From Xanthostigma xanthostigma (taxonomy: Eukaryota; Arthropoda; Insecta; Raphidioptera; Raphidiidae): a stretch of 64,000 nt of DNA. Position numbers and translations under genes: made by a program. How positions within the stretch are numbered: position 1 is the first letter of the stretch; the number at the start of each line of letters is the position of its first letter. The DNA lies in the NCBI GenBank assembly GCA_963575645.1, contig OY754469.1, positions 45,032,753 through 45,096,752 of the forward strand. The letters are read 5' to 3'. The notes under the pieces were generated by a model. The model was not told the DNA's origin and made no database searches. It saw nothing but the letters and a program-made list of their open reading frames with translations. This document shows positions 10,788 to 64,000 of this stretch, in pieces.

Positions 10788-10795
10788 GTGGAAAC

Positions 10796-19351: not shown

Positions 19352-19408
19352 GTTGTGGAACAAAGCCATACAGACGTTTGTTTGTGCTCATTGGATTCAG
19401 CGTGTTTG
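19352..19408 (+). repeat. Right-arm fragment of the 320-bp satellite-family unit
   Basis: Reads CATACAGACGTTTGTTTGTG and then CTCATTGGATTCAGCGTG, identical in layout to the right hairpin arm of the units at 20,377-21,165. It is cut off by the element at 19,409-20,376, after which the unit continues (TTTTTTTTCTCTAAACATGG). Confidence 0.75.
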
Positions 19409-20376
19409 TGACGTGATAACGTCTTATAAATTGATGAATCACCAATCTTATAAATTGATAAAACACCGGCTGCATGCACGAAAAAGTGTAACGTTCCTAA
19501 CGCGTAACGTTCCGCCTGACCCTGTGCGTGCTTTTTGCTAATTTCTCGCTCAATTTAAATCAGATCGGTTTGAAACTAGTCTTAAACGAAAGAGGAGAAC
19601 ATTTTACATAAATTTCGTATAACAGAATTTGCCTAAACAGTTTTTTTATACAAATTTATATAGAAAAATAGCTGTATAAATGCAATGTTGTATAATGCAT
19701 GACGCGACGCGGTCGTTCGTCTTTGTTTGCCGTACATGGAAATTAGAAAATAACGTATGTCTTGTCTTAACATGAAAACGGCTGCATTTCTAATGTTTAA
19801 TTCAATTTTTTGACATTAGTATTTTGTGAAATGCAACGCCTTCTAAGTTAACTATTGGAATAACTAATTATTATTAGAACATAATACTTTGACAGTTGCA
19901 AACGTCACTTTTGACATTTCTTATCATTCCGACACCAAGGATAAGCGGATTGAAACCAAATTTTGGGAGGATGTTTGATATGCAAATATGAAGTGGCCTA
20001 TTGTTTTTGGGGAACATCGGCGCATGTGTAAAAGAATATATCTCTTATAATGATGTTTTATATAATAATAATATAGTTTTTAAAACGGTTTTTACTCTAT
20101 CTATTTTTACTAGAAATTTTTGTAAATTTTTTGGGGAAAATCGGCGCATGCGCAAAAGAGATACATGCCATAGTTGTTTTTTATATAATAATAGTGTACT
20201 TTTTATAGTGTTTTATTATTCTACTTAATAAAATTTACCTAAATTTGAAGCGAAAGATGCAATATCATAGATTCGAATTATTATAATTATTATATAAATT
20301 TAGGTTATGTATTACGGAATACGTTATCACGTAAAACTATCGTCCGTAAACCGACTTTACAGACAACCAATTTTTT
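19409..20376 (+). mobile_element. Dispersed element, copy A (968 bp), inserted in the 320-bp repeat
   Basis: Starts TGACGTGATAACGTC and ends CGACTTTACAGACAACCAAT. The same sequence lies inverted at 36,652-37,271, except that copy A has about 322 extra bases (19,981-20,302). That extra block contains a direct duplication of a GGGGAA(C/A)ATCGGCGCATG unit. Near the right end ACGTTATCACGT complements the left-end ACGTGATAACGT. The flanks on both sides are satellite-family sequence, so this is a clean insertion. No transposase; the superfamily is unknown. Confidence 0.7.
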
Positions 20377-21165
20377 TTTCTCTAAACATGGTGATTCTGC
20401 CAAAGTTCCGAAAAATTTCGGTTTTCGTAAAAAATCGCGTTTTTCTTAAAGGGGGTATGACTTCAAAAAATTGCAAAAATCGAATTCTTTAATATACTTT
20501 TGAAATTGACAATGCTTGCTGGAAAAAAACACGCTGAATTTAATGAGCGTAAGCAAACGTCTGTATGTCTTTTAGTTTGGAAACTACGGCCATTCGAAGG
20601 TTTTATATGATTTTTTGAAAACTATAAACGCAAATAACTTCTAAACCAAAAGACATACAGACGTTTGTTTATGCTCATTGGATTCAGCTTGTTTTTTTCT
20701 ATAAACATGATGGTTTTGCCAAAGCTACGAAATATTTTGGTTTTCGTCAAAAATCGCATGTTTTTAAAAAAGTAGGTATGCCTTGAAAAGTTTGCAAAAA
20801 TCGAATTCTTTAATATACTTTTGAAATTAAGACTGCTTGCAGAAAAAAACACGCTGAATTCAACGAGCGTAAGCAAACGTCTGTATGTCCTTTAGTTTGG
20901 AAACTACGGCCATTCGAAGGTTTTATATGATTTTTTGAAAACTATAAACGCAAATAACTTCTAAACCAAAAGACATACAGACGTTTGTTTGTGCTCATTG
21001 GATTCAGCTTGTTTTTTTTCTATAAACATGATGGTTTTGCCAAAGGTACGAAAGATTTCAGTTTTCGTCAAAAATCGCGTTTTTTTTAAAAGGGTATGCC
21101 TTGAAAAAATTGCATTATTTAGAAATTTAGAAAGCTTACAAAAAACAGTAACAGCTCTTAGTAAT
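20377..21165 (+). repeat. Short tandem array, 320-bp period, same family as the 640-bp satellite
   Basis: ACGCTGAATT occurs at 20,531 and 20,851, exactly 320 bp apart, and the surrounding sequence repeats for about 2.5 units. Each unit has left-arm text (GCTGAATTTAATGAGCG, CGTCTGTATGTCTTTTAG) and a complementary right arm (ACTTCTAAACCAAAAGACAT, then CAGACG..GCTCATTGGATTCAGC), so each folds into a hairpin. The core GCTGAATC(C/G)AATGAGC is shared with the satellite at 41,727-64,000, whose 640-bp monomer is two such units. Confidence 0.85.
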
Positions 21166-25953: not shown

Positions 25954-26421
25954 CATAGAGATATTAGACTAGAGTACCTACGCGAGATAGCAGTGAAAGT
26001 GTCTGCAATTAAGAGAGAGAACATTGTCTTATCTCTATGATAACTAATGATGCAAAACAATGCTGATTTGAGTAATCAAATTTCCGGTTTTCTGCAGCGC
26101 TCTCTTTCTTAACTGAGGACACTTTCACTTATGGCAAGCGTATGAGAGAGCAGTGAAAGTGTCTGCAATTAAGAGAGAGAACAGTTCGTTATCTCTATGG
26201 TAACTAATGATGCAAAACAATGCTGATTTGAGTAAACACGTTTCCGGTTTTCTGCAGCGTTCTCCCTCTTTCTTAACTGAGGACACTTTCACTTATGGCA
26301 AGCGTATAAGAGAGCAGTGAAAGTGTCTGCAATTAAGAGAGAGAACAGTCTCTTATCTCTATGATAACTAATGGTGCAAAACAATGCTGATTTGAGTAAA
26401 CAAATTTCCGGTTTTCTGCAA

Positions 26422-26466
<45 letters not shown>

Positions 26467-36488: not shown

Positions 36489-36651
36489 AAAAAAATCAAT
36501 AACGAATTAAACCTCCAGTGACGTATGAGTTACAAAAGTGACATCCAGTTGTCTATTTTTAACCACCGTGAAAAAGATTGCCAATCGCATTCTTCTACGT
36601 AAGCGTCGTGAACGACGACTGTAACATCGTCCATTTTAAATAAAAAATTGG

Positions 36652-37271: not shown

Positions 37272-37704
37272 AAAAATAATGAGATTCTCGACAGGAGTTG
37301 CACCGTGCCGAATGACTAAATGAATTTGTTAGACTTGTCGCTCGTGGCGCTCCTGTGATAGTAACTCAAGACATATCACCTCTTTTCATTGGAGCAAAAA
37401 ATAGATTACCGGATAATCTACATTTAACGGTGTCACTGGAGATTAAATAAGTCGTTTTGAAAATTTTATTTGGCGTGTAGAGATAAAACGTTTTTACACA
37501 AAATTGAGTTAAAAAAATGTTATTTAAAAAAAACTATCAAAAATTCAGGCCACTTTGCCTTGAAGCCCCAAATGTATAACTCTAGGTACATAGTCGGTAC
37601 TTACATTATTATTATGAAACAATCGTAGATATTATATAAAAACTCAGTTGCTGTTGTACAAAAAGATTGCAGGTTGCATATAACACCTACTAAACGTATT
37701 GATG
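37272..37704 (-). other. 3' flank of the kekkon gene
   Basis: AT-rich, downstream of the stop codon on the minus strand. Contains a possible polyadenylation signal at 37,465-37,470. No element recognised. Confidence 0.5.
37465..37470 (-). terminator. Possible polyadenylation signal of the kekkon gene
   Basis: TTTATT on the plus strand is AATAAA on the gene strand, 235 bases after the stop. It is the nearest canonical hexamer I see, but the genome is AT-rich, so chance is possible. Confidence 0.35.
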
Positions 37705-39750: not shown

Positions 39751-40505
39751 TTCGTTCGCACCAGCTCCTCCTGATCATGTTGCGGCGCGCCGCTGCCCGC
39801 TTCCCACGAGCATTTGGCGGTCGCGGGGGCGCTGACCCTACCCACTTCCACGTCCTATATTTACGCCCGTTATATTTTTTACTGAAACTCTACACCCACG
39901 CTCTTGTACTCTTATTTACACTCTCACCACCAACAGATCTGACACATTTTTTTAGTTAGTAGTTGAAAAGTTACATTTTTAACATCAACCACAACACGTT
40001 CCACAGTCCACTCACACCAAAACACCTAAGTAATGTAAATACATCGTTTGATAAACATACACAAAATTTTATATTGTACATCAACATTCAATACAGTTGA
40101 AACCACTATATTATGGAGACGAGTATTTGATAGAACATAGTACATACAGAGCTATTCCCAGTATACTGACTGACTGACTGACTAACTGACCCGAGTTCGG
40201 TCGTTCTATTGGCACTGCGCATTGTTGCGTCGGGAAACGTCGTACCGCACGACCGACGCCAAACGACGCCGTTCAACAGCTTGCTCGCGCCACATATTAT
40301 ACCGGTGCACAAACTGCAACAATCGTACCGCAACTGCCGCAGCTACACGCGTGCCTCAAGAGCGTTCGGTGTTTCGTGTTCGCACTACGTTAGTTCGGAC
40401 GCTGTTGAAAAGATGGCAGTGTCACGATTCATTGAGTCGACAAGGCAAAGAAGGGGATTTGAAAGATTCAAAATGAAAATCTGGGAATTTCGTGTTAATT
40501 TTAAT
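39751..40505 (-). promoter_or_regulatory. CpG-rich 5' flank / probable 5' untranslated region of kekkon
   Basis: The flank stays richer in CG dinucleotides than the surroundings up to about 40,480, as expected for a 5' untranslated region and promoter. Two ATGs upstream of the start (39,778 and 39,851) open other frames that overlap the kekkon start, so they would be inhibitory uORFs if transcribed. A TTCAGT initiator-like motif at about 39,885 has a GGACG near +29, one base off the usual DPE spacing. A CTGA tetranucleotide run lies at about 40,164-40,190. No TATA box is evident. The start site is unproven. Confidence 0.35.
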
Positions 40506-41726: not shown

Positions 41727-42437
41727 TTTTCATTTTAAATAAAGTGCAGTATCGACCGGAAATTTATATAATATATGGTTGAAAATGACTTGGTCCTATG
41801 CAAAAAATCATGCTGAATCGAATGAGCGTATCTAGAAGTCTGTAGCTATTGTAGTTTTCAAGTTATAGGTTTTTAATTTTTGCAAGAAAAATTTATAAAA
41901 ACGCGTGTATCTCCTAAACCAAAAGAGATACAGAGTTGCGGGTGGTTTTATTGGATTCAGCGTGATTTTTTGCATAAGTACACATTATATTAACCGCATC
42001 GGAAGGCTCTTAGTGCCCCGAAAAGCCGCCGATTTGCGAAAACATCGAAAAACTTCAATTTTTTCAATTTTTTGGAAAATATAAAAGTGTCACGGATATG
42101 CCTGAATTTACTCGACCTTATAGAAAAAAGTGCGCTGAATCGAATGAGCACAAGCGCAGAACTGTATCTCTTCTGGTTTCGAAGTTATGAGCATTTAAAG
42201 TTTGAAAATTTCAAACTCGATTATCTCCGAAACTAGACAAGATACAGAGCTGCGCCTGTGCTCATTGGATTCAGCGTGTGAAAATCTACCGGGTAACCTT
42301 AATATCGACCCGTTCTGGGAGACTTCGATTTTGAAAATTTTTACAGGGGGGGCCGACGATTATTTTTTCATTTTAAATAAAGTGCAGTATCGACCGGAAA
42401 TTTATATAATATATGGTTGAAAATGACTTGGTCCTAT

Positions 42438-42612
42438 GCAAAAAATCATGCTGAATCGAATGAGCGTATCTAGAAGTCTGTAGCTATTGTAGTTTTCAAG
42501 TTATAGCGTTTTTAATTTTTGCAAGAAAAATTTATAAAAACGCGTGTATCTCCTAAACCAAAAGAGATACAGAGTTGCGGGTGGTTTTATTGGATTCAGC
42601 GTGATTTTTTGC
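42438..42612 (+). repeat. Hairpin A of a representative monomer
   Basis: GCAAAAAATCATGCTGAATC on the left pairs with GATTCAGCGTGATTTTTTGC on the right with one mismatch, and the arms continue imperfectly for about 75 bp. The apex contains AAATTTATAAAAACGCG. The same structure recurs in every monomer. Confidence 0.85.
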
Positions 42613-42770
42613 ATAAGTACACATTATATTAACCGCATCGGAAGGCTCTTAGTGCCCCAAAAAGCCGCCGATTTGCGAAAACATCGAAAAACTTCAATTT
42701 TTTCAATTTTTTGGAAAATATAAAAGTGTCACGGATATGCCTGAATTTACTCGACCTTATAGAAAAAAGT

Positions 42771-42916
42771 GCGCTGAATCGAATGAGCACAAGCGCAGAA
42801 CTGTATCTCTTCTGGTTTCGAAGTTATGAGCATTTAAAGTTTGAAAATTTCAAACTCGATTATCTCCGAAACTAGACAAGATACAGAGCTGCGCCTGTGC
42901 TCATTGGATTCAGCGT
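42771..42916 (+). repeat. Hairpin B of a representative monomer
   Basis: GCGCTGAATCGAATGAGCAC pairs with GTGCTCATTGGATTCAGCGT, then AGCGCAG..CTGTATC with GATACAG..CTGCGC and TTTCGAAGTTAT with ATCTCCGAAA, to a central TTTGAAAATTTCAAA palindrome. The arms are about 70 bp, roughly 80% paired by eye. The outer ends are closely related to hairpin A and to the units at 20,377-21,165. Confidence 0.85.
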
Positions 42917-45900
42917 GTGAAAATCTACCGGGTAACATTAATATCGACCCGTTCTGGGAGACTTCGATTTTGAAAATTTTTACAGGGGGGGGCCGACGAT
43001 TATTTTTTCATTTTAAATAAAGTGCAGTATCGACCGGAAATTTATATAATATATGGTTGAAAATGACTTGGTCCTATGCAAAAAATCATGCTGAATCGAA
43101 TGAGCCTATCTAGAAGTCTGTCGCTATTGTAGTTTTCAAGTTATAGCGTTTTTAATTTTTTCAAGAAAAATTTATAAAAACGCGTGTATCTCCTAAACCA
43201 AAAGAGATACAGAGTTGCGGGTGGTTTTATTGGATTCAGCGTGATTTTTTGCATAAGTACACATAATATTAACCGCATCGGAAGGCTCTTAGTGCCCCAA
43301 AAAGCCGCCGATTTGCGAAAACATCGAAAAACTTCAATTTTTTCAATTTTTTGGAAAATATAAAAGTGTCACGGATATGCCTGAATTTACTCGACCTTAT
43401 AGAAAAAAGTGCGCTGAATCGAATGAGCACAAGCGCAGAACTGTATCTCTTCTGGTTTCGAAGTTATGAGCATTTAAAGTTTGAAAATTTCAAACTCGAT
43501 TATCTCCGAAACTAGACAAGATACAGAGCTGCGCCTGTGCTCATTGGATTCAGCGTGTGAAAATCTACCGGGTAACCTTAATATCGACCCGTTCTGGAAG
43601 ACTTCGATTTTGAAAATTTTTACAGGGGGGGGCCGACGATTATTTTTTCATTTTAAATAAAGTGCAGTATCGACCGGAAATTTATATAATATATGGTTGA
43701 AAATGACTTGGTCCTATGCAAAAAATCATGCTGAATCGAATGAGCGTATCTAGAAGTCTGTAGCTATTGTAGTTTTCAAGTTATAGCGTTTTTAATTTTT
43801 TCAAGAAAAATTTATAAAAACGCGTGTATCTCCTAAACCAAAAGAGATACAGAGTTGCGGGTGGTTTTATTGGATTCAGCGTGATTTTTTGCATAAGTAC
43901 ACATAATATTAACCGCATCGGAAGGCTCTTAGTGCCCCAAAAAGCCGCCGATTTGCGAAAACATCGAAAAACTTCAATTTTTTCAATTTTTTGGAAAATA
44001 TAAAAGTGTCACGGATATGCCTGAATTTACTCGACCTTATAGAAAAAAGTGCGCTGAATCGAATGAGCACAAGCGCAGAACTGTATCTCTTCTGGTTTCG
44101 AAGTTATGAGCATTTAAAGTTTGAAAATTTCAAACTCGATTATCTCCGAAACTAGACAAGATACAGAGCTGCGCCTGTGCTCATTGGATTCAGCGTGTGA
44201 AAATCTACCGGGTAACCTTAATATCGACCCGTTCTGGGAGACTTCGATTTTGAAAATTTTTACAGGGGGGGGCCGACGATTATTTTTTCATTTTAAATAA
44301 AGTGCAGTATCGACCGGAAATTTATATAATATATGGTTGAAAATGACTTGGTCCTATGCAAAAAATCATGCTGAATCGAATGAGCCTATCTAGAAGTCTG
44401 TAGCTATTGTAGTTTTCAAGTTATAGCGTTTTTAATTTTTGCAAGAAAAATTTATAAAAACGCGTGTATCTCCTAAACCAAAAGAGATACAGAGTTGCGG
44501 GTGGTTTTATTGGATTCAGCGTGATTTTTTGCATAAGTACACATAATATTAACCGCATCGGAAGGCTCTTAGTGCCCCAAAAAGCCGCCGATTTGCGAAA
44601 ACATCGAAAAACTTCAATTTTTTCAATTTTTTGGAAAATATAAAAGTGTCACGGATATGCCTGAATTTACTCGACCTTATAGAAAAAAGTGCGCTGAATC
44701 GAATGAGCACAAGCGCAGAACTGTATCTCTTCTGGTTTCGAAGTTATGAGCATTTAAAGTTTGAAAATTTCAAACTCGATTATCTCCGAAACTAGACAAG
44801 ATACAGAGCTGCGCCTGTGCTCATTGGATTCAGCGTGTGAAAATCTACCGGGTAACCTTAATATCGACCCGTTCTGGGAGACTTCGATTTTGAAAATTTT
44901 TACAGGGGGGGGCCGACGATTATTTTTTCATTTTAAATAAAGTGCAGTATCGACCGGAAATTTATATAATATATGGTTGAAAATGACTTGGTCCTATGCA
45001 AAAAATCATGCTGAATCGAATGAGCCTATCTAGAAGTCTGTTGCTATTGTAGTTTTCAAGTTATAGCGTTTTTAATTTTTTCAAGAAAAATTTATAAAAA
45101 CGCGTGTATCTCCTAAACCAAAAGAGATACAGAGTTGCGGGTGGTTTTATTGGATTCAGCGTGATTTTTTGCATAAGTACACATAATATTAACCGCATCG
45201 GAAGGCTCTTAGTGCCCCAAAAAGCCGCCGATTTGCGAAAACATCGAAAAACTTCAATTTTTTCAATTTTTTGGAAAATATAAAAGTGTCACGGATATGC
45301 CTGAATTTACTCGACCTTATAGAAAAAAGTGCGCTGAATCGAATGAGCACAAGCGCAGAACTGTATCTCTTCTGGTTTCGAAGTTATGAGCATTTAAAGT
45401 TTGAAAATTTCAAACTCGATTATCTCCGAAACTAGACAAGATACAGAGCTGCGCCTGTGCTCATTGGATTCAGCGTGTGAAAATCTACCGGGTAACCTTA
45501 ATATCGACCCGTTCTGGGAGACTTCGATTTTGAAAATTTTTACAGGGGGGGGCCGACGATTATTTTTTCATTTTAAATAAAGTGCAGTATCGACCGGAAA
45601 TTTATATAATATATGGTTGAAAATGACTTGGTCCTATGCAAAAAATCATGCTGAATCGAATGAGCCTATCTAGAAGTCTGTTGCTATTGTAGTTTTCAAG
45701 TTATAGCGTTTTTAATTTTTTCAAGAAAAATTTATAAAAACGCGTGTATCTCCTAAACCAAAAGAGATACAGAGTTGCGGGTGGTTTTATTGGATTCAGC
45801 GTGATTTTTTGCATAAGTACACATAATATTAACCGCATCGGAAGGCTCTTAGTGCCCCAAAAAGCCGCCGATTTGCGAAAACATCGAAAAACTTCAATTT

Positions 45901-48900
45901 TTTCAATTTTTTGGAAAATATAAAAGTGTCACGGATATGCCTGAATTTACTCGACCTTATAGAAAAAAGTGCGCTGAATCGAATGAGCACAAGCGCAGAA
46001 CTGTATCTCTTCTGGTTTCGAAGTTATGAGCATTTAAAGTTTGAAAATTTCAAACTCGATTATCTCCGAAACTAGACAAGATACAGAGCTGCGCCTGTGC
46101 TCATTGGATTCAGCGTGTGAAAATCTACCGGGTAACCTTAATATCGACCCGTTCTGGGAGACTTCGATTTTGAAAATTTTTACAGGGGGGGGCCGACGAT
46201 TATTTTTTCATTTTAAATAAAGTGCAGTATCGACCGGAAATTTATATAATATATGGTTGAAAATGACTTGGTCCTATGCAAAAAATCATGCTGAATCGAA
46301 TGAGCCTATCTAGAAGTCTGTTGCTATTGTAGTTTTCAAGTTATAGCGTTTTTAATTTTTTCAAGAAAAATTTATAAAAACGCGTGTATCTCCTAAACCA
46401 AAAGAGATACAGAGTTGCGGGTGGTTTTATTGGATTCAGCGTGATTTTTTGCATAAGTACACATAATATTAACCGCATCGGAAGGCTCTTAGTGCCCCAA
46501 AAAGCCGCCGATTTGCGAAAACATCGAAAAACTTCAATTTTTTCAATTTTTTGGAAAATATAAAAGTGTCACGGATATGCCTGAATTTACTCGACCTTAT
46601 AGAAAAAAGTGCGCTGAATCGAATGAGCACAAGCGCAGAACTGTATCTCTTCTGGTTTCGAAGTTATGAGCATTTAAAGTTTGAAAATTTCAAACTCGAT
46701 TATCTCCGAAACTAGACAAGATACAGAGCTGCGCCTGTGCTCATTGGATTCAGCGTGTGAAAATCTACCGGGTAACCTTAATATCGACCCGTTCTGGGAG
46801 ACTTCGATTTTGAAAATTTTTACAGGGGGGGGCCGACGATTATTTTTTCATTTTAAATAAAGTGCAGTATCGACCGGAAATTTATATAATATATGGTTGA
46901 AAATGACTTGGTCCTATGCAAAAAATCATGCTGAATCGAATGAGCCTATCTAGAAGTCTGTTGCTATTGTAGTTTTCAAGTTATAGCGTTTTTAATTTTT
47001 TCAAGAAAAATTTATAAAAACGCGTGTATCTCCTAAACCAAAAGAGATACAGAGTTGCGGGTGGTTTTATTGGATTCAGCGTGATTTTTTGCATAAGTAC
47101 ACATAATATTAACCGCATCGGAAGGCTCTTAGTGCCCCAAAAAGCCGCCGATTTGCGAAAACATCGAAAAACTTCAATTTTTTCAATTTTTTGGAAAATA
47201 TAAAAGTGTCACGGATATGCCTGAATTTACTCGACCTTATAGAAAAAAGTGCGCTGAATCGAATGAGCACAAGCGCAGAACTGTATCTCTTCTGGTTTCG
47301 AAGTTATGAGCATTTAAAGTTTGAAAATTTCAAACTCGATTATCTCCGAAACTAGACAAGATACAGAGCTGCGCCTGTGCTCATTGGATTCAGCGTGTGA
47401 AAATCTACCGGGTAACCTTAATATCGACCCGTTCTGGGAGACTTCGATTTTGAAAATTTTTACAGGGGGGGGCCGACGATTATTTTTTCATTTTAAATAA
47501 AGTGCAGTATCGACCGGAAATTTATATAATATATGGTTGAAAATGACTTGGTCCTATGCAAAAAATCATGCTGAATCGAATGAGCCTATCTAGAAGTCTG
47601 TTGCTATTGTAGTTTTCAAGTTATAGCGTTTTTAATTTTTTCAAGAAAAATTTATAAAAACGCGTGTATCTCCTAAACCAAAAGAGATACAGAGTTGCGG
47701 GTGGTTTTATTGGATTCAGCGTGATTTTTTGCATAAGTACACATAATATTAACCGCATCGGAAGGCTCTTAGTGCCCCAAAAAGCCGCCGATTTGCGAAA
47801 ACATCGAAAAACTTCAATTTTTTCAATTTTTTGGAAAATATAAAAGTGTCACGGATATGCCTGAATTTACTCGACCTTATAGAAAAAAGTGCGCTGAATC
47901 GAATGAGCACAAGCGCAGAACTGTATCTCTTCTGGTTTCGAAGTTATGAGCATTTAAAGTTTGAAAATTTCAAACTCGATTATCTCCGAAACTAGACAAG
48001 ATACAGAGCTGCGCCTGTGCTCATTGGATTCAGCGTGTGAAAATCTACCGGGTAACCTTAATATCGACCCGTTCTGGGAGACTTCGATTTTGAAAATTTT
48101 TACAGGGGGGGGCCGACGATTATTTTTTCATTTTAAATAAAGTGCAGTATCGACCGGAAATTTATATAATATATGGTTGAAAATGACTTGGTCCTATGCA
48201 AAAAATCATGCTGAATCGAATGAGCCTATCTAGAAGTCTGTTGCTATTGTAGTTTTCAAGTTATAGCGTTTTTAATTTTTTCAAGAAAAATTTATAAAAA
48301 CGCGTGTATCTCCTAAACCAAAAGAGATACAGAGTTGCGGGTGGTTTTATTGGATTCAGCGTGATTTTTTGCATAAGTACACATAATATTAACCGCATCG
48401 GAAGGCTCTTAGTGCCCCAAAAAGCCGCCGATTTGCGAAAACATCGAAAAACTTCAATTTTTTCAATTTTTTGGAAAATATAAAAGTGTCACGGATATGC
48501 CTGAATTTACTCGACCTTATAGAAAAAAGTGCGCTGAATCGAATGAGCACAAGCGCAGAACTGTATCTCTTCTGGTTTCGAAGTTATGAGCATTTAAAGT
48601 TTGAAAATTTCAAACTCGATTATCTCCGAAACTAGACAAGATACAGAGCTGCGCCTGTGCTCATTGGATTCAGCGTGTGAAAATCTACCGGGTAACCTTA
48701 ATATCGACCCGTTCTGGGAGACTTCGATTTTGAAAATTTTTACAGGGGGGGGCCGACGATTATTTTTTCATTTTAAATAAAGTGCAGTATCGACCGGAAA
48801 TTTATATAATATATGGTTGAAAATGACTTGGTCCTATGCAAAAAATCATGCTGAATCGAATGAGCCTATCTAGAAGTCTGTTGCTATTGTAGTTTTCAAG

Positions 48901-51900
48901 TTATAGCGTTTTTAATTTTTTCAAGAAAAATTTATAAAAACGCGTGTATCTCCTAAACCAAAAGAGATACAGAGTTGCGGGTGGTTTTATTGGATTCAGC
49001 GTGATTTTTTGCATAAGTACACATAATATTAACCGCATCGGAAGGCTTTTAGTGCCCCAAAAAGCCGCCGATTTGCGAAAACATCGAAAAACTTCAATTT
49101 TTTCAATTTTTTGGAAAATATAAAAGTGTCACGGATATGCCTGAATTTACTCGACCTTATAGAAAAAAGTGCGCTGAATCGAATGAGCACAAGCGCAGAA
49201 CTGTATCTCTTCTGGTTTCGAAGTTATGAGCATTTAAAGTTTGAAAATTTCAAACTCGATTATCTCCGAAACTAGACAAGATACAGAGCTGCGCCTGTGC
49301 TCATTGGATTCAGCGTGTGAAAATCTACCGGGTAACCTTAATATCGACCCGTTCTGGGAGACTTCGATTTTGAAAATTTTTACAGGGGGGGGCCGACGAT
49401 TATTTTTTCATTTTAAATAAAGTGCAGTATCGACCGGAAATTTATATAATATATGGTTGAAAATGACTTGGTCCTATGCAAAAAATCATGCTGAATCGAA
49501 TGAGCCTATCTAGAAGTCTGTTGCTATTGTAGTTTTCAAGTTATAGCGTTTTTAATTTTTTCAAGAAAAATTTATAAAAACGCGTGTATCTCCTAAACCA
49601 AAAGAGATACAGAGTTGCGGGTGGTTTTATTGGATTCAGCGTGATTTTTTGCATAAGTACACATAATATTAACCGCATCGGAAGGCTCTTAGTGCCCCAA
49701 AAAGCCGCCGATTTGCGAAAACATCGAAAAACTTCAATTTTTTCAATTTTTTGGAAAATATAAAAGTGTCACGGATATGCCTGAATTTACTCGACCTTAT
49801 AGAAAAAAGTGCGCTGAATCGAATGAGCACAAGCGCAGAACTGTATCTCTTCTGGTTTCGAAGTTATGAGCATTTAAAGTTTGAAAATTTCAAACTCGAT
49901 TATCTCCGAAACTAGACAAGATACAGAGCTGCGCCTGTGCTCATTGGATTCAGCGTGTGAAAATCTACCGGGTAACCTTAATATCGACCCGTTCTGGGAG
50001 ACTTCGATTTTGAAAATTTTTACAGGGGGGGGCCGACGATTATTTTTTCATTTTAAATAAAGTGCAGTATCGACCGGAAATTTATATAATATATGGTTGA
50101 AAATGACTTGGTCCTATGCAAAAAATCATGCTGAATCGAATGAGCCTATCTAGAAGTCTGTTGCTATTGTAGTTTTCAAGTTATAGCGTTTTTAATTTTT
50201 TCAAGAAAAATTTATAAAAACGCGTGTATCTCCTAAACCAAAAGAGATACAGAGTTGCGGGTGGTTTTATTGGATTCAGCGTGATTTTTTGCATAAGTAC
50301 ACATAATATTAACCGCATCGGAAGGCTCTTAGTGCCCCAAAAAGCCGCCGATTTGCGAAAACATCGAAAAACTTCAATTTTTTCAATTTTTTGGAAAATA
50401 TAAAAGTGTCACGGATATGCCTGAATTTACTCGACCTTATAGAAAAAAGTGCGCTGAATCGAATGAGCACAAGCGCAGAACTGTATCTCTTCTGGTTTCG
50501 AAGTTATGAGCATTTAAAGTTTGAAAATTTCAAACTCGATTATCTCCGAAACTAGACAAGATACAGAGCTGCGCCTGTGCTCATTGGATTCAGCGTGTGA
50601 AAATCTACCGGGTAACCTTAATATCGACCCGTTCTGGGAGACTTCGATTTTGAAAATTTTTACAGGGGGGGGCCGACGATTATTTTTTCATTTTAAATAA
50701 AGTGCAGTATCGACCGGAAATTTATATAATATATGGTTGAAAATGACTTGGTCCTATGCAAAAAATCATGCTGAATCGAATGAGCCTATCTAGAAGTCTG
50801 TTGCTATTGTAGTTTTCAAGTTATAGCGTTTTTAATTTTTTCAAGAAAAATTTATAAAAACGCGTGTATCTCCTAAACCAAAAGAGATACAGAGTTGCGG
50901 GTGGTTTTATTGGATTCAGCGTGATTTTTTGCATAAGTACACATAATATTAACCGCATCGGAAGGCTCTTAGTGCCCCAAAAAGCCGCCGATTTGCGAAA
51001 ACATCGAAAAACTTCAATTTTTTCAATTTTTTGGAAAATATAAAAGTGTCACGGATATGCCTGAATTTACTCGACCTTATAGAAAAAAGTGCGCTGAATC
51101 GAATGAGCACAAGCGCAGAACTGTATCTCTTCTGGTTTCGAAGTTATGAGCATTTAAAGTTTGAAAATTTCAAACTCGATTATCTCCGAAACTAGACAAG
51201 ATACAGAGCTGCGCCTGTGCTCATTGGATTCAGCGTGTGAAAATCTACCGGGTAACCTTAATATCGACCCGTTCTGGGAGACTTCGATTTTGAAAATTTT
51301 TACAGGGGGGGGCCGACGATTATTTTTTCATTTTAAATAAAGTGCAGTATCGACCGGAAATTTATATAATATATGGTTGAAAATGACTTGGTCCTATGCA
51401 AAAAATCATGCTGAATCGAATGAGCGTATCTAGAAGTCTGTAGCTATTGTAGTTTTCAAGTTATAGCGTTTTTAATTTTTGCAAGAAAAATTTATAAAAA
51501 CGCGTGTATCTCCTAAACCAAAAGAGATACAGAGTTGCGGGTGGTTTTATTGGATTCAGCGTGATTTTTTGCATAAGTACACATAATATTAACCGCATCG
51601 GAAGGCTCTTAGTGCCCCAAAAAGCCGCCGATTTGCGAAAACATCGAAAAACTTCAATTTTTTCAATTTTTTGGAAAATATAAAAGTGTCACGGATATGC
51701 CTGAATTTACTCGACCTTATAGAAAAAAGTGCGCTGAATCGAATGAGCACAAGCGCAGAACTGTATCTCTTCTGGTTTCGAAGTTATGAGCATTTAAAGT
51801 TTGAAAATTTCAAACTCGATTATCTCCGAAACTAGACAAGATACAGAGCTGCGCCTGTGCTCATTGGATTCAGCGTGTGAAAATCTACCGGGTAACCTTA

Positions 51901-54900
51901 ATATCGACCCGTTCTGGGAGACTTCGATTTTGAAAATTTTTACAGGGGGGGGCCGACGATTATTTTTTCATTTTAAATAAAGTGCAGTATCGACCGGAAA
52001 TTTATATAATATATGGTTGAAAATGACTTGGTCCTATGCAAAAAATCATGCTGAATCGAATGAGCCTATCTAGAAGTCTGTTGCTATTGTAGTTTTCAAG
52101 TTATAGCGTTTTTAATTTTTGCAAGAAAAATTTATAAAAACGCGTGTATCTCCTAAACCAAAAGAGATACAGAGTTGCGGGTGGTTTTATTGGATTCAGC
52201 GTGATTTTTTGCATAAGTACACATAATATTAACCGCATCGGAAGGCTCTTAGTGCCCCAAAAAGCCGCCGATTTGCGAAAACATCGAAAAACTTCAATTT
52301 TTTCAATTTTTTGGAAAATATAAAAGTGTCACGGATATGCCTGAATTTACTCGACCTTATAGAAAAAAGTGCGCTGAATCGAATGAGCACAAGCGCAGAA
52401 CTGTATCTCTTCTGGTTTCGAAGTTATGAGCATTTAAAGTTTGAAAATTTCAAACTCGATTATCTCCGAAACTAGACAAGATACAGAGCTGCGCCTGTGC
52501 TCATTGGATTCAGCGTGTGAAAATCTACCGGGTAACCTTAATATCGACCCGTTCTGGGAGACTTCGATTTTGAAAATTTTTACAGGGGGGGGCCGACGAT
52601 TATTTTTTCATTTTAAATAAAGTGCAGTATCGACCGGAAATTTATATAATATATGGTTGAAAATGACTTGGTCCTATGCAAAAAATCATGCTGAATCGAA
52701 TGAGCCTATCTAGAAGTCTGTTGCTATTGTAGTTTTCAAGTTATAGCGTTTTTAATTTTTTCAAGAAAAATTTATAAAAACGCGTGTATCTCCTAAACCA
52801 AAAGAGATACAGAGTTGCGGGTGGTTTTATTGGATTCAGCGTGATTTTTTGCATAAGTACACATAATATTAACCGCATCGGAAGGCTTTTAGTGCCCCAA
52901 AAAGCCGCCGATTTGCGAAAACATCGAAAAACTTCAATTTTTTCAATTTTTTGGAAAATATAAAAGTGTCACGGATATGCCTGAATTTACTCGACCTTAT
53001 AGAAAAAAGTGCGCTGAATCGAATGAGCACAAGCGCAGAACTGTATCTCTTCTGGTTTCGAAGTTATGAGCATTTAAAGTTTGAAAATTTCAAACTCGAT
53101 TATCTCCGAAACTAGACAAGATACAGAGCTGCGCCTGTGCTCATTGGATTCAGCGTGTGAAAATCTACCGGGTAACCTTAATATCGACCCGTTCTGGGAG
53201 ACTTCGATTTTGAAAATTTTTACAGGGGGGGGCCGACGATTATTTTTTCATTTTAAATAAAGTGCAGTATCGACCGGAAATTTATATAATATATGGTTGA
53301 AAATGACTTGGTCCTATGCAAAAAATCATGCTGAATCGAATGAGCCTATCTAGAAGTCTGTTGCTATTGTAGTTTTCAAGTTATAGCGTTTTTAATTTTT
53401 TCAAGAAAAATTTATAAAAACGCGTGTATCTCCTAAACCAAAAGAGATACAGAGTTGCGGGTGGTTTTATTGGATTCAGCGTGATTTTTTGCATAAGTAC
53501 ACATAATATTAACCGCATCGGAAGGCTCTTAGTGCCCCAAAAAGCCGCCGATTTGCGAAAACATCGAAAAACTTCAATTTTTTCAATTTTTTGGAAAATA
53601 TAAAAGTGTCACGGATATGCCTGAATTTACTCGACCTTATAGAAAAAAGTGCGCTGAATCGAATGAGCACAAGCGCAGAACTGTATCTCTTCTGGTTTCG
53701 AAGTTATGAGCATTTAAAGTTTGAAAATTTCAAACTCGATTATCTCCGAAACTAGACAAGATACAGAGCTGCGCCTGTGCTCATTGGATTCAGCGTGTGA
53801 AAATCTACCGGGTAACCTTAATATCGACCCGTTCTGGGAGACTTCGATTTTGAAAATTTTTACAGGGGGGGGCCGACGATTATTTTTTCATTTTAAATAA
53901 AGTGCAGTATCGACCGGAAATTTATATAATATATGGTTGAAAATGACTTGGTCCTATGCAAAAAATCATGCTGAATCGAATGAGCGTATCTAGAAGTCTG
54001 TAGCTATTGTAGTTTTCAAGTTATAGCGTTTTTAATTTTTGCAAGAAAAATTTATAAAAACGCGTGTATCTCCTAAACCAAAAGAGATACAGAGTTGCGG
54101 GTGGTTTTATTGGATTCAGCGTGATTTTTTGCATAAGTACACATAATATTAACCGCATCGGAAGGCTCTTAGTGCCCCAAAAAGCCGCCGATTTGCGAAA
54201 ACATCGAAAAACTTCAATTTTTTCAATTTTTTGGAAAATATAAAAGTGTCACGGATATGCCTGAATTTACTCGACCTTATAGAAAAAAGTGCGCTGAATC
54301 GAATGAGCACAAGCGCAGAACTGTATCTCTTCTGGTTTCGAAGTTATGAGCATTTAAAGTTTGAAAATTTCAAACTCGATTATCTCCGAAACTAGACAAG
54401 ATACAGAGCTGCGCCTGTGCTCATTGGATTCAGCGTGTGAAAATCTACCGGGTAACCTTAATATCGACCCGTTCTGGGAGACTTCGATTTTGAAAATTTT
54501 TACAGGGGGGGGCCGACGATTATTTTTTCATTTTAAATAAAGTGCAGTATCGACCGGAAATTTATATAATATATGGTTGAAAATGACTTGGTCCTATGCA
54601 AAAAATCATGCTGAATCGAATGAGCCTATCTAGAAGTCTGTTGCTATTGTAGTTTTCAAGTTATAGCGTTTTTAATTTTTTCAAGAAAAATTTATAAAAA
54701 CGCGTGTATCTCCTAAACCAAAAGAGATACAGAGTTGCGGGTGGTTTTATTGGATTCAGCGTGATTTTTTGCATAAGTACACATAATATTAACCGCATCG
54801 GAAGGCTCTTAGTGCCCCAAAAAGCCGCCGATTTGCGAAAACATCGAAAAACTTCAATTTTTTCAATTTTTTGGAAAATATAAAAGTGTCACGGATATGC

Positions 54901-57900
54901 CTGAATTTACTCGACCTTATAGAAAAAAGTGCGCTGAATCGAATGAGCACAAGCGCAGAACTGTATCTCTTCTGGTTTCGAAGTTATGAGCATTTAAAGT
55001 TTGAAAATTTCAAACTCGATTATCTCCGAAACTAGACAAGATACAGAGCTGCGCCTGTGCTCATTGGATTCAGCGTGTGAAAATCTACCGGGTAACCTTA
55101 ATATCGACCCGTTCTGGGAGACTTCGATTTTGAAAATTTTTACAGGGGGGGGCCGACGATTATTTTTTCATTTTAAATAAAGTGCAGTATCGACCGGAAA
55201 TTTATATAATATATGGTTGAAAATGACTTGGTCCTATGCAAAAAATCATGCTGAATCGAATGAGCCTATCTAGAAGTCTGTTGCTATTGTAGTTTTCAAG
55301 TTATAGCGTTTTTAATTTTTTCAAGAAAAATTTATAAAAACGCGTGTATCTCCTAAACCAAAAGAGATACAGAGTTGCGGGTGGTTTTATTGGATTCAGC
55401 GTGATTTTTTGCATAAGTACACATAATATTAACCGCATCGGAAGGCTCTTAGTGCCCCAAAAAGCCGCCGATTTGCGAAAACATCGAAAAACTTCAATTT
55501 TTTCAATTTTTTGGAAAATATAAAAGTGTCACGGATATGCCTGAATTTACTCGACCTTATAGAAAAAAGTGCGCTGAATCGAATGAGCACAAGCGCAGAA
55601 CTGTATCTCTTCTGGTTTCGAAGTTATGAGCATTTAAAGTTTGAAAATTTCAAACTCGATTATCTCCGAAACTAGACAAGATACAGAGCTGCGCCTGTGC
55701 TCATTGGATTCAGCGTGTGAAAATCTACCGGGTAACCTTAATATCGACCCGTTCTGGGAGACTTCGATTTTGAAAATTTTTACAGGGGGGGGCCGACGAT
55801 TATTTTTTCATTTTAAATAAAGTGCAGTATCGACCGGAAATTTATATAATATATGGTTGAAAATGACTTGGTCCTATGCAAAAAATCATGCTGAATCGAA
55901 TGAGCCTATCTAGAAGTCTGTTGCTATTGTAGTTTTCAAGTTATAGCGTTTTTAATTTTTTCAAGAAAAATTTATAAAAACGCGTGTATCTTCTAAACCA
56001 AAAGAGATACAGAGTTGCGGGTGGTTTTATTGGATTCAGCGTGATTTTTTGCATAAGTACACATAATATTAACCGCATCGGAAGGCTCTTAGTGCCCCAA
56101 AAAGCCGCCGATTTGCGAAAACATCGAAAAACTTCAATTTTTTCAATTTTTTGGAAAATATAAAAGTGTCACGGATATGCCTGAATTTACTCGACCTTAT
56201 AGAAAAAAGTGCGCTGAATCGAATGAGCACAAGCGCAGAACTGTATCTCTTCTGGTTTCGAAGTTATGAGCATTTAAAGTTTGAAAATTTCAAACTCGAT
56301 TATCTCCGAAACTAGACAAGATACAGAGCTGCGCCTGTGCTCATTGGATTCAGCGTGTGAAAATCTACCGGGTAACCTTAATATCGACCCGTTCTGGGAG
56401 ACTTCGATTTTGAAAATTTTTACAGGGGGGGGCCGACGATTATTTTTTCATTTTAAATAAAGTGCAGTATCGACCGGAAATTTATATAATATATGGTTGA
56501 AAATGACTTGGTCCTATGCAAAAAATCATGCTGAATCGAATGAGCCTATCTAGAAGTCTGTTGCTATTGTAGTTTTCAAGTTATAGCGTTTTTAATTTTT
56601 TCAAGAAAAATTTATAAAAACGCGTGTATCTCCTAAACCAAAAGAGATACAGAGTTGCGGGTGGTTTTATTGGATTCAGCGTGATTTTTTGCATAAGTAC
56701 ACATAATATTAACCGCATCGGAAGGCTCTTAGTGCCCCAAAAAGCCGCCGATTTGCGAAAACATCGAAAAACTTCAATTTTTTCAATTTTTTGGAAAATA
56801 TAAAAGTGTCACGGATATGCCTGAATTTACTCGACCTTATAGAAAAAAGTGCGCCGAATCGAATGAGCACAAGCGCAGAACTGTATCTCTTCTGGTTTCG
56901 AAGTTATGAGCATTTAAAGTTTGAAAATTTCAAACTCGATTATCTCCGAAACTAGACAAGATACAGAGCTGCGCCTGTGCTCATTGGATTCAGCGTGTGA
57001 AAATCTACCGGGTAACCTTAATATCGACCCGTTCTGGGAGACTTCGATTTTGAAAATTTTTACAGGGGGGGGCCGACGATTATTTTTTCATTTTAAATAA
57101 AGTGCATTATCGACCGGAAATTTATATAATATATGGTTGAAAATGACTTGGTCCTATGCAAAAAATCATGCTGAATCGAATGAGCCTATCTAGAAGTCTG
57201 TTGCTATTGTAGTTTTCAAGTTATAGCGTTTTTAATTTTTTCAAGAAAAATTTATAAAAACGCGTGTATCTCCTAAACCAAAAGAGATACAGAGTTGCGG
57301 GTGGTTTTATTGGATTCAGCGTGATTTTTTGCATAAGTACACATAATATTAACCGCATCGGAAGGCTCTTAGTGCCCCAAAAAGCCGCCGATTTGCGAAA
57401 ACATCGAAAAACTTCAATTTTTTCAATTTTTTGGAAAATATAAAAGTGTCACGGATATGCCTGAATTTACTCGACCTTATAGAAAAAAGTGCGCTGAATC
57501 GAATGAGCACAAGCGCAGAACTGTATCTCTTCTGGTTTCGAAGTTATGAGCATTTAAAGTTTGAAAATTTCAAACTCGATTATCTCCGAAACTAGACAAG
57601 ATACAGAGCTGCGCCTGTGCTCATTGGATTCAGCGTGTGAAAATCTACCGGGTAACCTTAATATCAACCCGTTCTGGGAGACTTCGATTTTGAAAATTTT
57701 TACAGGGGGGGGCCGACGATTATTTTTTCATTTTAAATAAAGTGCAGTATCGACCGGAAATTTATATAATATATGGTTGAAAATGACTTGGTCCTATGCA
57801 AAAAATCATGCTGAATCGAATGAGCCTATCTAGAAGTCTGTAGCTATTGTAGTTTTCAAGTTATAGCGTTTTTAATTTTTGCAAGAAAAATTTATAAAAA

Positions 57901-60900
57901 CGCGTGTATCTCCTAAACCAAAAGAGATACAGAGTTGCGGGTGGTTTTATTGGATTCAGCGTGATTTTTTGCATAAGTACACATAATATTAACCGCATCG
58001 GAAGGCTCTTAGTGCCCCAAAAAGCCGCCGATTTGCGAAAACATCGAAAAACTTCAATTTTTTCAATTTTTTGGAAAATATAAAAGTGTCACGGATATGC
58101 CTGAATTTACTCGACCTTATAGAAAAAAGTGCGCTGAATCGAATGAGCACAAGCGCAGAACTGTATCTCTTCTGGTTTCGAAGTTATGAGCATTTAAAGT
58201 TTGAAAATTTCAAACTCGATTATCTCCGAAACTAGACAAGATACAGAGCTGCGCCTGTGCTCATTGGATTCAGCGTGTGAAAATCTACCGGGTAACCTTA
58301 ATATCGACCCGTTCTGGGAGACTTCGATTTTGAAAATTTTTACAGGGGGGGGCCGACGATTATTTTTTCATTTTAAATAAAGTGCAGTATCGACCGGAAA
58401 TTTATATAATATATGGTTGAAAATGACTTGGTCCTATGCAAAAAATCATGCTGAATCGAATGAGCCTATCTAGAAGTCTGTTGCTATTGTAGTTTTCAAG
58501 TTATAGCGTTTTTAATTTTTTCAAGAAAAATTTATAAAAACGCGTGTATCTCCTAAACCAAAAGAGATACAGAGTTGCGGGTGGTTTTATTGGATTCAGC
58601 GTGATTTTTTGCATAAGTACACATAATATTAACCGCATCGGAAGGCTCTTAGTGCCCCAAAAAGCCGCCGATTTGCGAAAACATCGAAAAACTTCAATTT
58701 TTTCAATTTTTTGGAAAATATAAAAGTGTCACGGATATGCCTGAATTTACTCGACCTTATAGAAAAAAGTGCGCTGAATCGAATGAGCACAAGCGCAGAA
58801 CTGTATCTCTTCTGGTTTCGAAGTTATGAGCATTTAAAGTTTGAAAATTTCAAACTCGATTATCTCCGAAACTAGACAAGATACAGAGCTGCGCCTGTGC
58901 TCATTGGATTCAGCGTGTGAAAATCTACCGGGTAACCTTAATATCGACCCGTTCTGGGAGACTTCGATTTTGAAAATTTTTACAGGGGGGGGCCGACGAT
59001 TATTTTTTCATTTTAAATAAAGTGCAGTATCGACCGGAAATTTATATAATATATGGTTGAAAATGACTTGGTCCTATGCAAAAAATCATGCTGAATCGAA
59101 TGAGCCTATCTAGAAGTCTGTTGCTATTGTAGTTTTCAAGTTATAGCGTTTTTAATTTTTTCAAGAAAAATTTATAAAAACGCGTGTATCTCCTAAACCA
59201 AAAGAGATACAGAGTTGCGGGTGGTTTTATTGGATTCAGCGTGATTTTTTGCATAAGTACACATAATATTAACCGCATCGGAAGGCTCTTAGTGCCCCAA
59301 AAAGCCGCCGATTTGCGAAAACATCGAAAAACTTCAATTTTTTCAATTTTTTGGAAAATATAAAAGTGTCACGGATATGCCTGAATTTACTCGACCTTAT
59401 AGAAAAAAGTGCGCTGAATCGAATGAGCACAAGCGCAGAACTGTATCTCTTCTGGTTTCGAAGTTATGAGCATTTAAAGTTTGAAAATTTCAAACTCGAT
59501 TATCTCCGAAACTAGACAAGATACAGAGCTGCGCCTGTGCTCATTGGATTCAGCGTGTGAAAATCTACCGGGTAACCTTAATATCGACCCGTTCTGGGAG
59601 ACTTCGATTTTGAAAATTTTTACAGGGGGGGGCCGACGATTATTTTTTCATTTTAAATAAAGTGCAGTATCGACCGGAAATTTATATAATATATGGTTGA
59701 AAATGACTTGGTCCTATGCAAAAAATCATGCTGAATCGAATGAGCCTATCTAGAAGTCTGTAGCTATTGTAGTTTTCAAGTTATAGCGTTTTTAATTTTT
59801 GCAAGAAAAATTTATAAAAACGCGTGTATCTCCTAAACCAAAAGAGATACAGAGTTGCGGGTGGTTTTATTGGATTCAGCGTGATTTTTTGCATAAGTAC
59901 ACATAATATTAACCGCATCGGAAGGCTCTTAGTGCCCCAAAAAGCCGCCGATTTGCGAAAACATCGAAAAACTTCAATTTTTTCAATTTTTTGGAAAATA
60001 TAAAAGTGTCACGGATATGCCTGAATTTACTCGACCTTATAGAAAAAAGTGCGCTGAATCGAATGAGCACAAGCGCAGAACTGTATCTCTTCTGGTTTCG
60101 AAGTTATGAGCATTTAAAGTTTGAAAATTTCAAACTCGATTATCTCCGAAACTAGACAAGATACAGAGCTGCGCCTGTGCTCATTGGATTCAGCGTGTGA
60201 AAATCTACCGGGTAACCTTAATATCGACCCGTTCTGGGAGACTTCGATTTTGAAAATTTTTACAGGGGGGGGCCGACGATTATTTTTTCATTTTAAATAA
60301 AGTGCAGTATCGACCGGAAATTTATATAATATATGGTTGAAAATGACTTGGTCCTATGCAAAAAATCATGCTGAATCGAATGAGCCTATCTAGAAGTCTG
60401 TTGCTATTGTAGTTTTCAAGTTATAGCGTTTTTAATTTTTGCAAGAAAAATTTATAAAAACGCGTGTATCTCCTAAACCAAAAGAGATACAGAGTTGCGG
60501 GTGGTTTTATTGGATTCAGCGTGATTTTTTGCATAAGTACACATAATATTAACCGCATCGGAAGGCTCTTAGTGCCCCAAAAAGCCGCCGATTTGCGAAA
60601 ACATCGAAAAACTTCAATTTTTTCAATTTTTTGGAAAATATAAAAGTGTCACGGATATGCCTGAATTTACTCGACCTTATAGAAAAAAGTGCGCTGAATC
60701 GAATGAGCACAAGCGCAGAACTGTATCTCTTCTGGTTTCGAAGTTATGAGCATTTAAAGTTTGAAAATTTCAAACTCGATTATCTCCGAAACTAGACAAG
60801 ATACAGAGCTGCGCCTGTGCTCATTGGATTCAGCGTGTGAAAATCTACCGGGTAACCTTAATATCGACCCGTTCTGGGAGACTTCGATTTTGAAAATTTT

Positions 60901-63900
60901 TACAGGGGGGGGCCGACGATTATTTTTTCATTTTAAATAAAGTGCAGTATCGACCGGAAATTTATATAATATATGGTTGAAAATGACTTGGTCCTATGCA
61001 AAAAATCATGCTGAATCGAATGAGCCTATCTAGAAGTCTGTTGCTATTGTAGTTTTCAAGTTATAGCGTTTTTAATTTTTTCAAGAAAAATTTATAAAAA
61101 CGCGTGTATCTCCTAAACCAAAAGAGATACAGAGTTGCGGGTGGTTTTATTGGATTCAGCGTGATTTTTTGCATAAGTACACATAATATTAACCGCATCG
61201 GAAGGCTCTTAGTGCCCCAAAAAGCCGCCGATTTGCGAAAACATCGAAAAACTTCAATTTTTTCAATTTTTTGGAAAATATAAAAGTGTCACGGATATGC
61301 CTGAATTTACTCGACCTTATAGAAAAAAGTGCGCTGAATCGAATGAGCACAAGCGCAGAACTGTATCTCTTCTGGTTTCGAAGTTATGAGCATTTAAAGT
61401 TTGAAAATTTCAAACTCGATTATCTCCGAAACTAGACAAGATACAGAGCTGCGCCTGTGCTCATTGGATTCAGCGTGTGAAAATCTACCGGGTAACCTTA
61501 ATATCGACCCGTTCTGGGAGACTTCGATTTTGAAAATTTTTACAGGGGGGGGCCGACGATTATTTTTTCATTTTAAATAAAGTGCAGTATCGACCGGAAA
61601 TTTATATAATATATGGTTGAAAATGACTTGGTCCTATGCAAAAAATCATGCTGAATCGAATGAGCCTATCTAGAAGTCTGTTGCTATTGTAGTTTTCAAG
61701 TTATAGCGTTTTTAATTTTTTCAAGAAAAATTTATAAAAACGCGTGTATCTCCTAAACCAAAAGAGATACAGAGTTGCGGGTGGTTTTATTGGATTCAGC
61801 GTGATTTTTTGCATAAGTACACATAATATTAACCGCATCGGAAGGCTCTTAGTGCCCCAAAAAGCCGCCGATTTGCGAAAACATCGAAAAACTTCAATTT
61901 TTTCAATTTTTTGGAAAATATAAAAGTGTCACGGATATGCCTGAATTTACTCGACCTTATAGAAAAAAGTGCGCCGAATCGAATGAGCACAAGCGCAGAA
62001 CTGTATCTCTTCTGGTTTCGAAGTTATGAGCATTTAAAGTTTGAAAATTTCAAACTCGATTATCTCCGAAACTAGACAAGATACAGAGCTGCGCCTGTGC
62101 TCATTGGATTCAGCGTGTGAAAATCTACCGGGTAACCTTAATATCGACCCGTTCTGGGAGACTTCGATTTTGAAAATTTTTACAGGGGGGGGCCGACGAT
62201 TATTTTTTCATTTTAAATAAAGTGCATTATCGACCGGAAATTTATATAATATATGGTTGAAAATGACTTGGTCCTATGCAAAAAATCATGCTGAATCGAA
62301 TGAGCCTATCTAGAAGTCTGTTGCTATTGTAGTTTTCAAGTTATAGCGTTTTTAATTTTTTCAAGAAAAATTTATAAAAACGCGTGTATCTCCTAAACCA
62401 AAAGAGATACAGAGTTGCGGGTGGTTTTATTGGATTCAGCGTGATTTTTTGCATAAGTACACATAATATTAACCGCATCGGAAGGCTCTTAGTGCCCCAA
62501 AAAGCCGCCGATTTGCGAAAACATCGAAAAACTTCAATTTTTTCAATTTTTTGGAAAATATAAAAGTGTCACGGATATGCCTGAATTTACTCGACCTTAT
62601 AGAAAAAAGTGCGCTGAATCGAATGAGCACAAGCGCAGAACTGTATCTCTTCTGGTTTCGAAGTTATGAGCATTTAAAGTTTGAAAATTTCAAACTCGAT
62701 TATCTCCGAAACTAGACAAGATACAGAGCTGCGCCTGTGCTCATTGGATTCAGCGTGTGAAAATCTACCGGGTAACCTTAATATCAACCCGTTCTGGGAG
62801 ACTTCGATTTTGAAAATTTTTACAGGGGGGGGCCGACGATTATTTTTTCATTTTAAATAAAGTGCAGTATCGACCGGAAATTTATATAATATATGGTTGA
62901 AAATGACTTGGTCCTATGCAAAAAATCATGCTGAATCGAATGAGCCTATCTAGAAGTCTGTTGCTATTGTAGTTTTCAAGTTATAGCGTTTTTAATTTTT
63001 GCAAGAAAAATTTATAAAAACGCGTGTATCTCCTAAACCAAAAGAGATACAGAGTTGCGGGTGGTTTTATTGGATTCAGCGTGATTTTTTGCATAAGTAC
63101 ACATAATATTAACCGCATCGGAAGGCTCTTAGTGCCCCAAAAAGCCGCCGATTTGCGAAAACATCGAAAAACTTCAATTTTTTCAATTTTTTGGAAAATA
63201 TAAAAGTGTCACGGATATGCCTGAATTTACTCGACCTTATAGAAAAAAGTGCGCTGAATCGAATGAGCACAAGCGCAGAACTGTATCTCTTCTGGTTTCG
63301 AAGTTATGAGCATTTAAAGTTTGAAAATTTCAAACTCGATTATCTCCGAAACTAGACAAGATACAGAGCTGCGCCTGTGCTCATTGGATTCAGCGTGTGA
63401 AAATCTACCGGGTAACCTTAATATCGACCCGTTCTGGGAGACTTCGATTTTGAAAATTTTTACAGGGGGGGGCCGACGATTATTTTTTCATTTTAAATAA
63501 AGTGCAGTATCGACCGGAAATTTATATAATATATGGTTGAAAATGACTTGGTCCTATGCAAAAAATCATGCTGAATCGAATGAGCCTATCTAGAAGTCTG
63601 TTGCTATTGTAGTTTTCAAGTTATAGCGTTTTTAATTTTTTCAAGAAAAATTTATAAAAACGCGTGTATCTCCTAAACCAAAAGAGATACAGAGTTGCGG
63701 GTGGTTTTATTGGATTCAGCGTGATTTTTTGCATAAGTACACATAATATTAACCGCATCGGAAGGCTTTTAGTGCCCCAAAAAGCCGCCGATTTGCGAAA
63801 ACATCGAAAAACTTCAATTTTTTCAATTTTTTGGAAAATATAAAAGTGTCACGGATATGCCTGAATTTACTCGACCTTATAGAAAAAAGTGCGCTGAATC

Positions 63901-64000
63901 GAATGAGCACAAGCGCAGAACTGTATCTCTTCTGGTTTCGAAGTTATGAGCATTTAAAGTTTGAAAATTTCAAACTCGATTATCTCCGAAACTAGACAAG

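Follow-up and report, generated by a model that had tools for sequence, protein, structure and literature searches.

A tandem array of a 640-bp monomer was found on the plus strand at 41729..64000 of the window, that is, the whole stretch of 64,000 bp that was analyzed (contig C6, 45,032,753-45,096,752, in a genome assembly of 623 Mb and 28 contigs, of which C1 to C13 measure 18-84 Mb and C14 measures 24 kb). Sequence identity at a lag of 640 bp was 97.8% over 41727-64000, vs about 35% at a lag of 639 bp. The array opens with a left-edge copy of 638 bp (copy 0; 41729..42366, +), which departs from the consensus by five substitutions and two 1-bp deletions, and the first copy in the 640-bp register (42367..43006, +) served as the query monomer. 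Thirty-three copies of exactly 640 bp span 42367-63486, which together with copy 0 makes 34 complete copies, and a partial copy of 514 bp (63487..64000, +) is truncated by the window end. The copy number, the exact 640-bp spacing and the scarcity of substitutions given in the original prediction were borne out by the lag identity and the consensus, and the array does run off the window, as had been stated there. It continues to the window-equivalent position 70419 (G000 C6 45,074,481-45,103,171), so that its right end is now located 6,419 bp beyond the window; its total length of 28,691 bp comprises 44 complete copies followed by a partial one at the right edge. For an array of 28.7 kb with defined edges, the label "megasatellite" was too strong; being arranged head to tail, homogenized and non-coding, and one of several such arrays in the same genome, it corresponds to satellite DNA. 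The array was missed by TRF because the maximum period of that program was 500.

The 33 window copies of 640 bp differed from their consensus by a mean of 1.0 base per copy; 11/640 columns were variable among them, and 15 of the 33 were identical to the consensus. Three variable columns recurred at an exact distance of eight copies, and runs of identical copies on C6 reached six. Differences from the consensus in the edge copies amounted to seven in copy 0, five in copy 1 and 10 in copy 43, and the last, right partial copy was 96% identical with a 9-bp deletion within hairpin B (described below). Open frames reached only 75-80 aa, so that a protein-coding monomer was rejected, and no protein product is proposed for the 640-bp monomer. 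In the window, no match to Rfam was obtained at gathering scores and no self-cleaving motif (hammerhead, retrozyme) was found; a ribozyme or known RNA in the monomer was rejected on this basis.

Beside the array, a single long open frame was identified on the minus strand (37705-39774), which is GC-rich, encodes leucine-rich repeats and an Ig domain (Pfam LRR_8 and I-set), and is presumably kekkon-like. The window also contained a tandem array whose periods are ~160 bp and related values (25984-26973), part of which is copied at 10580-10790 and 1904-2104, and a weak match to the C-terminal part of a hAT transposase, below the Pfam cut-off (8578-8886, +).

Two related inverted repeats had been predicted in each monomer, and both were found. 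In the first register copy, hairpin A lies at 42435..42615 (+; consensus 69-249) and hairpin B at 42772..42917 (+; consensus about 406-551), and each repeats every 640 bp. Symmetric alignment gave 88 aligned pairs for hairpin A, including 66 Watson-Crick pairs, and 71 for hairpin B, including 55. Folded as DNA, hairpins A and B reached -36.7 kcal/mol (z -8.9) and -47.8 kcal/mol (z -10.7), respectively, and none of 200 dinucleotide shuffles was as good in either case (0/200 each). Both hairpins thus fold far above chance. The alignment of hairpin A with hairpin B had a z of 13.3 over dinucleotide shuffles, which shows the two halves of the monomer to be related. Inverted repeats of tens of bp or more, which form long dyads, are present in each monomer.

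A diverged relative, hereafter the C array, was identified at 20372..21114 (+); it comprises 2.3 copies of a unit of ~320 bp, which bears the same hairpin. Its hairpin C1 (20522..20699, +; z -13.0 folded as DNA) folds better still than hairpins A and B, and its hairpin C2 lies at 20843..21018 (+). The right-arm fragment of a C-type hairpin (19362..19407, +) is separated from the remainder of the C array by an insertion; the repeat inserted inside the C array (19405..20379, unstranded) has an inverted copy, with part missing, at 36639-37275. The arms of the A, B and C hairpins, with the right arms reverse-complemented, and the direct repeats of a locus on contig C13 aligned as one module of ~70 nt (12 arm sequences). 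Short blocks of the module recur in the aligned arms, even in the direct-repeat family of C13 (L245, 7594-8256), where a 459-bp tandem unit contains two directly oriented copies of the arm module, spaced by about 138 and 321 bp. The A, B and C units have lengths of 323, 317 and 320 bp. Their hairpins are alike (z about 10-13 in global alignment), and their spacers, trimmed by 20 bp, scored no higher than dinucleotide shuffles or random segments of the flanks. Covariance-model matches near the arrays (L226, L227, L228, L231, L247), which the sequence model missed there, were taken as unrelated palindromes.

The array is not an isolated locus; other arrays of the family were found on contig C1 and at contig ends. 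On contig C1, the 640-bp monomer was found in the opposite orientation from 10,990,985 down past 10,967,501. In the stretch retrieved, which sets a lower bound, this array measures at least 23.5 kb with 36 full copies, 27 of them identical to their own consensus and up to 11 identical copies in a run. The consensus sequences of the contig C1 and C6 arrays differ at 11/640 sites, and at 8 of these 11 the C6 edge copy 43 has the contig C1 state. When both flanks of the C6 array were compared with the flank of the one contig C1 edge reached (6 kb each), nothing common was detected by blastn at E 1e-5. Both arrays are internal, being 5.8 Mb (C6) and 11 Mb (contig C1) from the nearer contig ends. 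In addition, a lone B unit, which has retained 78 bp of spacer on its left and 11 bp on its right, was found 79 kb to the right of the window end.

Further members of the family were identified at the ends of contigs. The first 2 kb of the left end of C7 consist of an array of an 886-bp monomer on the minus strand, which corresponds to the 640-bp monomer plus a second B unit and is 95-97% identical to C6. At the right end of C7, the last 400 bp and a 400-bp sample taken 20 kb inwards both belong to the family on the plus strand; the arrays at the two ends (left minus, right plus) point outwards. The 400-bp samples taken 100 kb from either end of C7 and 20 kb from its left end were outside the family. 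On the right, the terminal 400 bp of C11 contained a diverged hairpin. Relatives of the spacer were detected in C11 and at the right end of contig C1, where the last 71 bp are 75% similar to the B-to-A spacer. Overall, 22 contig ends were sampled (13 left and 9 right, over 2 kb at six of them and over 400 bp at the other sixteen, with the right ends of C2-C5 excluded), of which three contained hairpins of the family and one a spacer match. Hairpins were found in none of 11 sampled 10-kb pieces of C7-C13, and one C13 piece had the module in direct repeats.

The motif (TTAGG)2 was absent from all 22 contig-end stretches. At 10 of the 22 ends examined, a T-rich minisatellite of 20-23 bp of the type GGCCGTTTTTTCCCTTTTTT was found, which is a possible unusual terminal repeat (L249, L250, L252, L256-L261, L266). 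It occurred at the left ends of C1, C3, C4, C5, C6, C8, C9, C10, and C13 and, reverse-complemented, at the right end of C9, and a variant with AGCTCC was present on C1 and C6. Reading by eye also identified a 24-bp tandem unit containing ACGCGC at the left end of C12 (L263) and a 42-bp tandem unit containing TTAGGAAAAAACG at the right end of C6 (L251). The extreme left end of C11 (L262) looks, by eye, like the terminal part of a histone H2B gene.

We consider it likely that these loci belong to one satellite family that is built on the ~70-nt arm module, resides mainly at chromosome ends, and was spread and homogenized by recombination. The block structure, the arrays on contigs C1 and C6, the outward-pointing arrays at the ends of C7, the diverged hairpin at the right of C11, the divergence of the edges and the array-specific consensus are direct observations. 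In the block structure, a hairpin of ~145-180 bp consists of two inverted modules of ~70 nt, and the ~320-bp unit of a hairpin with its spacer. The 640-bp monomer is composed of two diverged units (A+B), and the 886-bp form of A+B+B. The home of the family would be mainly the chromosome ends, with the C6 and contig C1 arrays as interstitial outposts, which may have been seeded by ectopic recombination or by reinsertion of circular copies; transfer between chromosomes with no common flanks is suggestive of these two routes. Each array would subsequently have been enlarged and homogenized by unequal exchange and conversion. The homogeneous center, the divergent edges, the recurrence of variants at eight copies, the array-specific consensus and the doubled unit fit such a process, and a copy 43 carrying mostly contig C1 states is expected if the center was swept and an older type was left at the edge. 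Hairpins promote breakage and template switching in general. In the least certain step of the scheme, the hairpins may persist because extrusion or snap-back at replication would cause breaks, template switching and array growth. The preference for chromosome ends is a possible one, based on 22 contig ends that may be assembly breaks.

The likeness of the A, B and C hairpins, together with spacers that were not above shuffles or flank segments, would also be obtained if the hairpin were a MITE (a small inverted-repeat transposon) with repeated insertions into unrelated tandem sequences, with arrays forming around it, and the other, unrelated palindromes in the window are as in MITE-rich DNA. 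We regard this explanation as unlikely, because the spacer kept on both sides of the lone B unit argues against movement of the hairpin by itself, the spacer has relatives at the right end of contig C1 and in C11, and the lengths of the three units agree. MITE copies end at their terminal inverted repeats, whereas the lone unit, a single copy, extends past its hairpin on either side.

Evidence that the hairpin structure itself has been kept was mixed. Among four hairpins, changes on both sides of a pair were found in 15/64 pairs, whereas shuffles gave 6.4 and sliding the partner gave at most 5; among ten hairpins, they were found in 19/64 pairs, vs 12.2 in shuffles and at most 7 when slid. In the ten-hairpin set, of which six hairpins were independent of the derivation of the structure and the rows are related to each other, 89.1% of cells pair, vs 82.1% in shuffles. 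Further pair types in the ten hairpins were not above shuffles (105/500 reached the value). This compensatory signal would equally arise from arm-to-arm conversion, and the pairing may have no role. Slower evolution of hairpins than of spacers, considered as a sign of constraint, was not borne out, as it was not significant in six of the seven recent comparisons. Changes between contig C1 and C6 affected 6/327 hairpin and 5/313 spacer sites, and those between C7 and C6 affected 17/327 and 11/267, respectively; the sole significant comparison was that of the lone B unit (3/146 in the hairpin vs 10/88 in the spacer, p 0.005). The deep conservation of the hairpins may thus owe more to conversion and to the shared descent of the module than to constraint. 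The edges of two arrays fall in hairpin stems at near-mirror positions (contig C1 at consensus 411 and C6 at 542); however, array boundaries were not enriched in hairpins, as hairpin cores account for 51% of the monomer and contained two of the seven placeable boundaries.

The short module blocks recurring in the aligned arms, even in the C13 direct repeats, and the outward-pointing arrays at both C7 ends would suit an arm module that is the binding site of a protein (CENP-B-like or other) and is maintained in pairs because this protein is dimeric, with the array active in chromosome-end or kinetochore chromatin. This reading appears quite improbable. A CENP-B box was absent from the monomer, in which the best near-match had three mismatches at the nine fixed positions, and the hairpins have recently evolved no slower than the spacers. 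The internal position of the C6 and contig C1 arrays also speaks against it. With regard to a centromeric location, for which the main array would be expected at every centromere in CENP-A chromatin, the C6 array is small and internal, the contig C1 array is likewise internal, and the C7 arrays lie at both ends.

It is also conceivable, with a very low probability in our estimate, that the array is transcribed and that its RNA hairpins feed Dicer, as do the endogenous-siRNA hairpin-RNA loci of Drosophila. Long hairpins arranged in tandem suit such processing, the compensatory changes in pairing would agree with it, and hpRNA loci that silence selfish genes are on record in the portions of PMC10292708 and PMC10317233 used here. 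In contrast, G-T and A-C mismatches in the symmetric arm alignments of four hairpins numbered 25 and 22, showing no strand bias (18 and 15, respectively, in five other palindromes of the window). As there is no excess of G-T in the arms, nothing points to RNA, and recent substitutions were equally frequent in hairpins and spacers.

Another reading takes the outward-pointing C7 arrays as end caps, in which the paired module would start strand exchange, and the C6 and contig C1 arrays as scars of such exchange, so that the family would help to maintain chromosome ends by recombination in a genome that lacks TTAGG arrays at the contig ends sampled; we hold this to be a long shot. Multiplication of copies by the assembler has almost negligible probability: the runs of identical copies on C6 and contig C1 could not be placed without long reads, but true tandem arrays are indicated by the distinct variants, by the divergence at the edges and by the 11 consensus differences of an independent array, which reduces this concern and leaves it in part, the exact copy number alone being unsure.

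The array is thus real, young, homogeneous and structurally uncommon, and it belongs to a satellite family that may favor chromosome ends. The genome supplies a graded set of forms of one module, with two hairpins, three hairpins, one hairpin or direct repeats, in arrays that lie either within contigs of chromosome size or at the ends of contigs, and this set bears on whether dyad structure within a monomer has any effect. Should the family prove to reside at chromosome ends, it would be informative, too, about the construction of ends that lack TTAGG.

Chironomus has complex satellites of ~340-350 bp at its chromosome ends, which are thought to grow by recombination, and their likeness to this family is one of position and length only. 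Satellites of the parasitoid wasps Diadromus and Eupelmus were reportedly described by Rojas-Rousse et al. in 1993. They are similar to the present monomer in having a predicted dyad or cruciform, as far as the descriptions go, and the section of PMC8122249 consulted lists such predicted structures in satellites of Diadromus, Eupelmus, Tribolium, Trichogramma brassicae, and Chironomus pallidivittatus. The structure had been called unusual in the original prediction. This stands in so far as longer dyads inside a satellite monomer "are not so common", but long dyads of this kind are already recorded in insects, both according to extracts of PMC13081366. The same extracts give 80-bp inverted repeats in the 385-bp satellite of the wasp T. 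brassicae, which are about the size of the arms found here; compared by description only, the present family differs in that its 640-bp monomer carries two diverged hairpins and its 886-bp form three.

In Tribolium, again following the extracts of PMC13081366, the 1061-bp satellite of T. brevicornis contains inverted segments of about 470 bp, and the 704-bp TmSat2 of T. madens contains a dyad of ~600 bp with inverted segments of ~300 bp. Both resemble the present monomer in carrying long dyads inside the monomer, and TmSat2 also resembles it in being assembled from copies of a short ancestral block, although the inverted segments are much longer than the arms found here. Moreover, TmSat1 and TmSat2 make up about 38% of the genome and occupy putative (peri)centromeric regions in that account, whereas the arrays of this family measure tens of kb and are internal or at contig ends.

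At the level of sequence, the monomer had no match in phage and plasmid collections. Motif searches gave 88 matches in IMG/VR and at least 117 in GTDB contigs, two other IMG/VR patterns gave 0 matches and one further pattern 11 loci. Among the 205 listed IMG/VR and GTDB loci compared by blastn with the monomer, the C array and the left flank, one 42-bp match was obtained (L050); it falls on a viral contig, in a stretch that looks by eye like coding sequence, and was attributed to chance. Strings of the family searched in the literature, a comparison separate from insect sequence databases, occurred in none of the relevant papers, and a 12-mer occurred in each of six papers that by title concern other organisms. 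Satellites with long dyads are a known kind, to which this family adds a sequence that is new as far as the literature strings tell.
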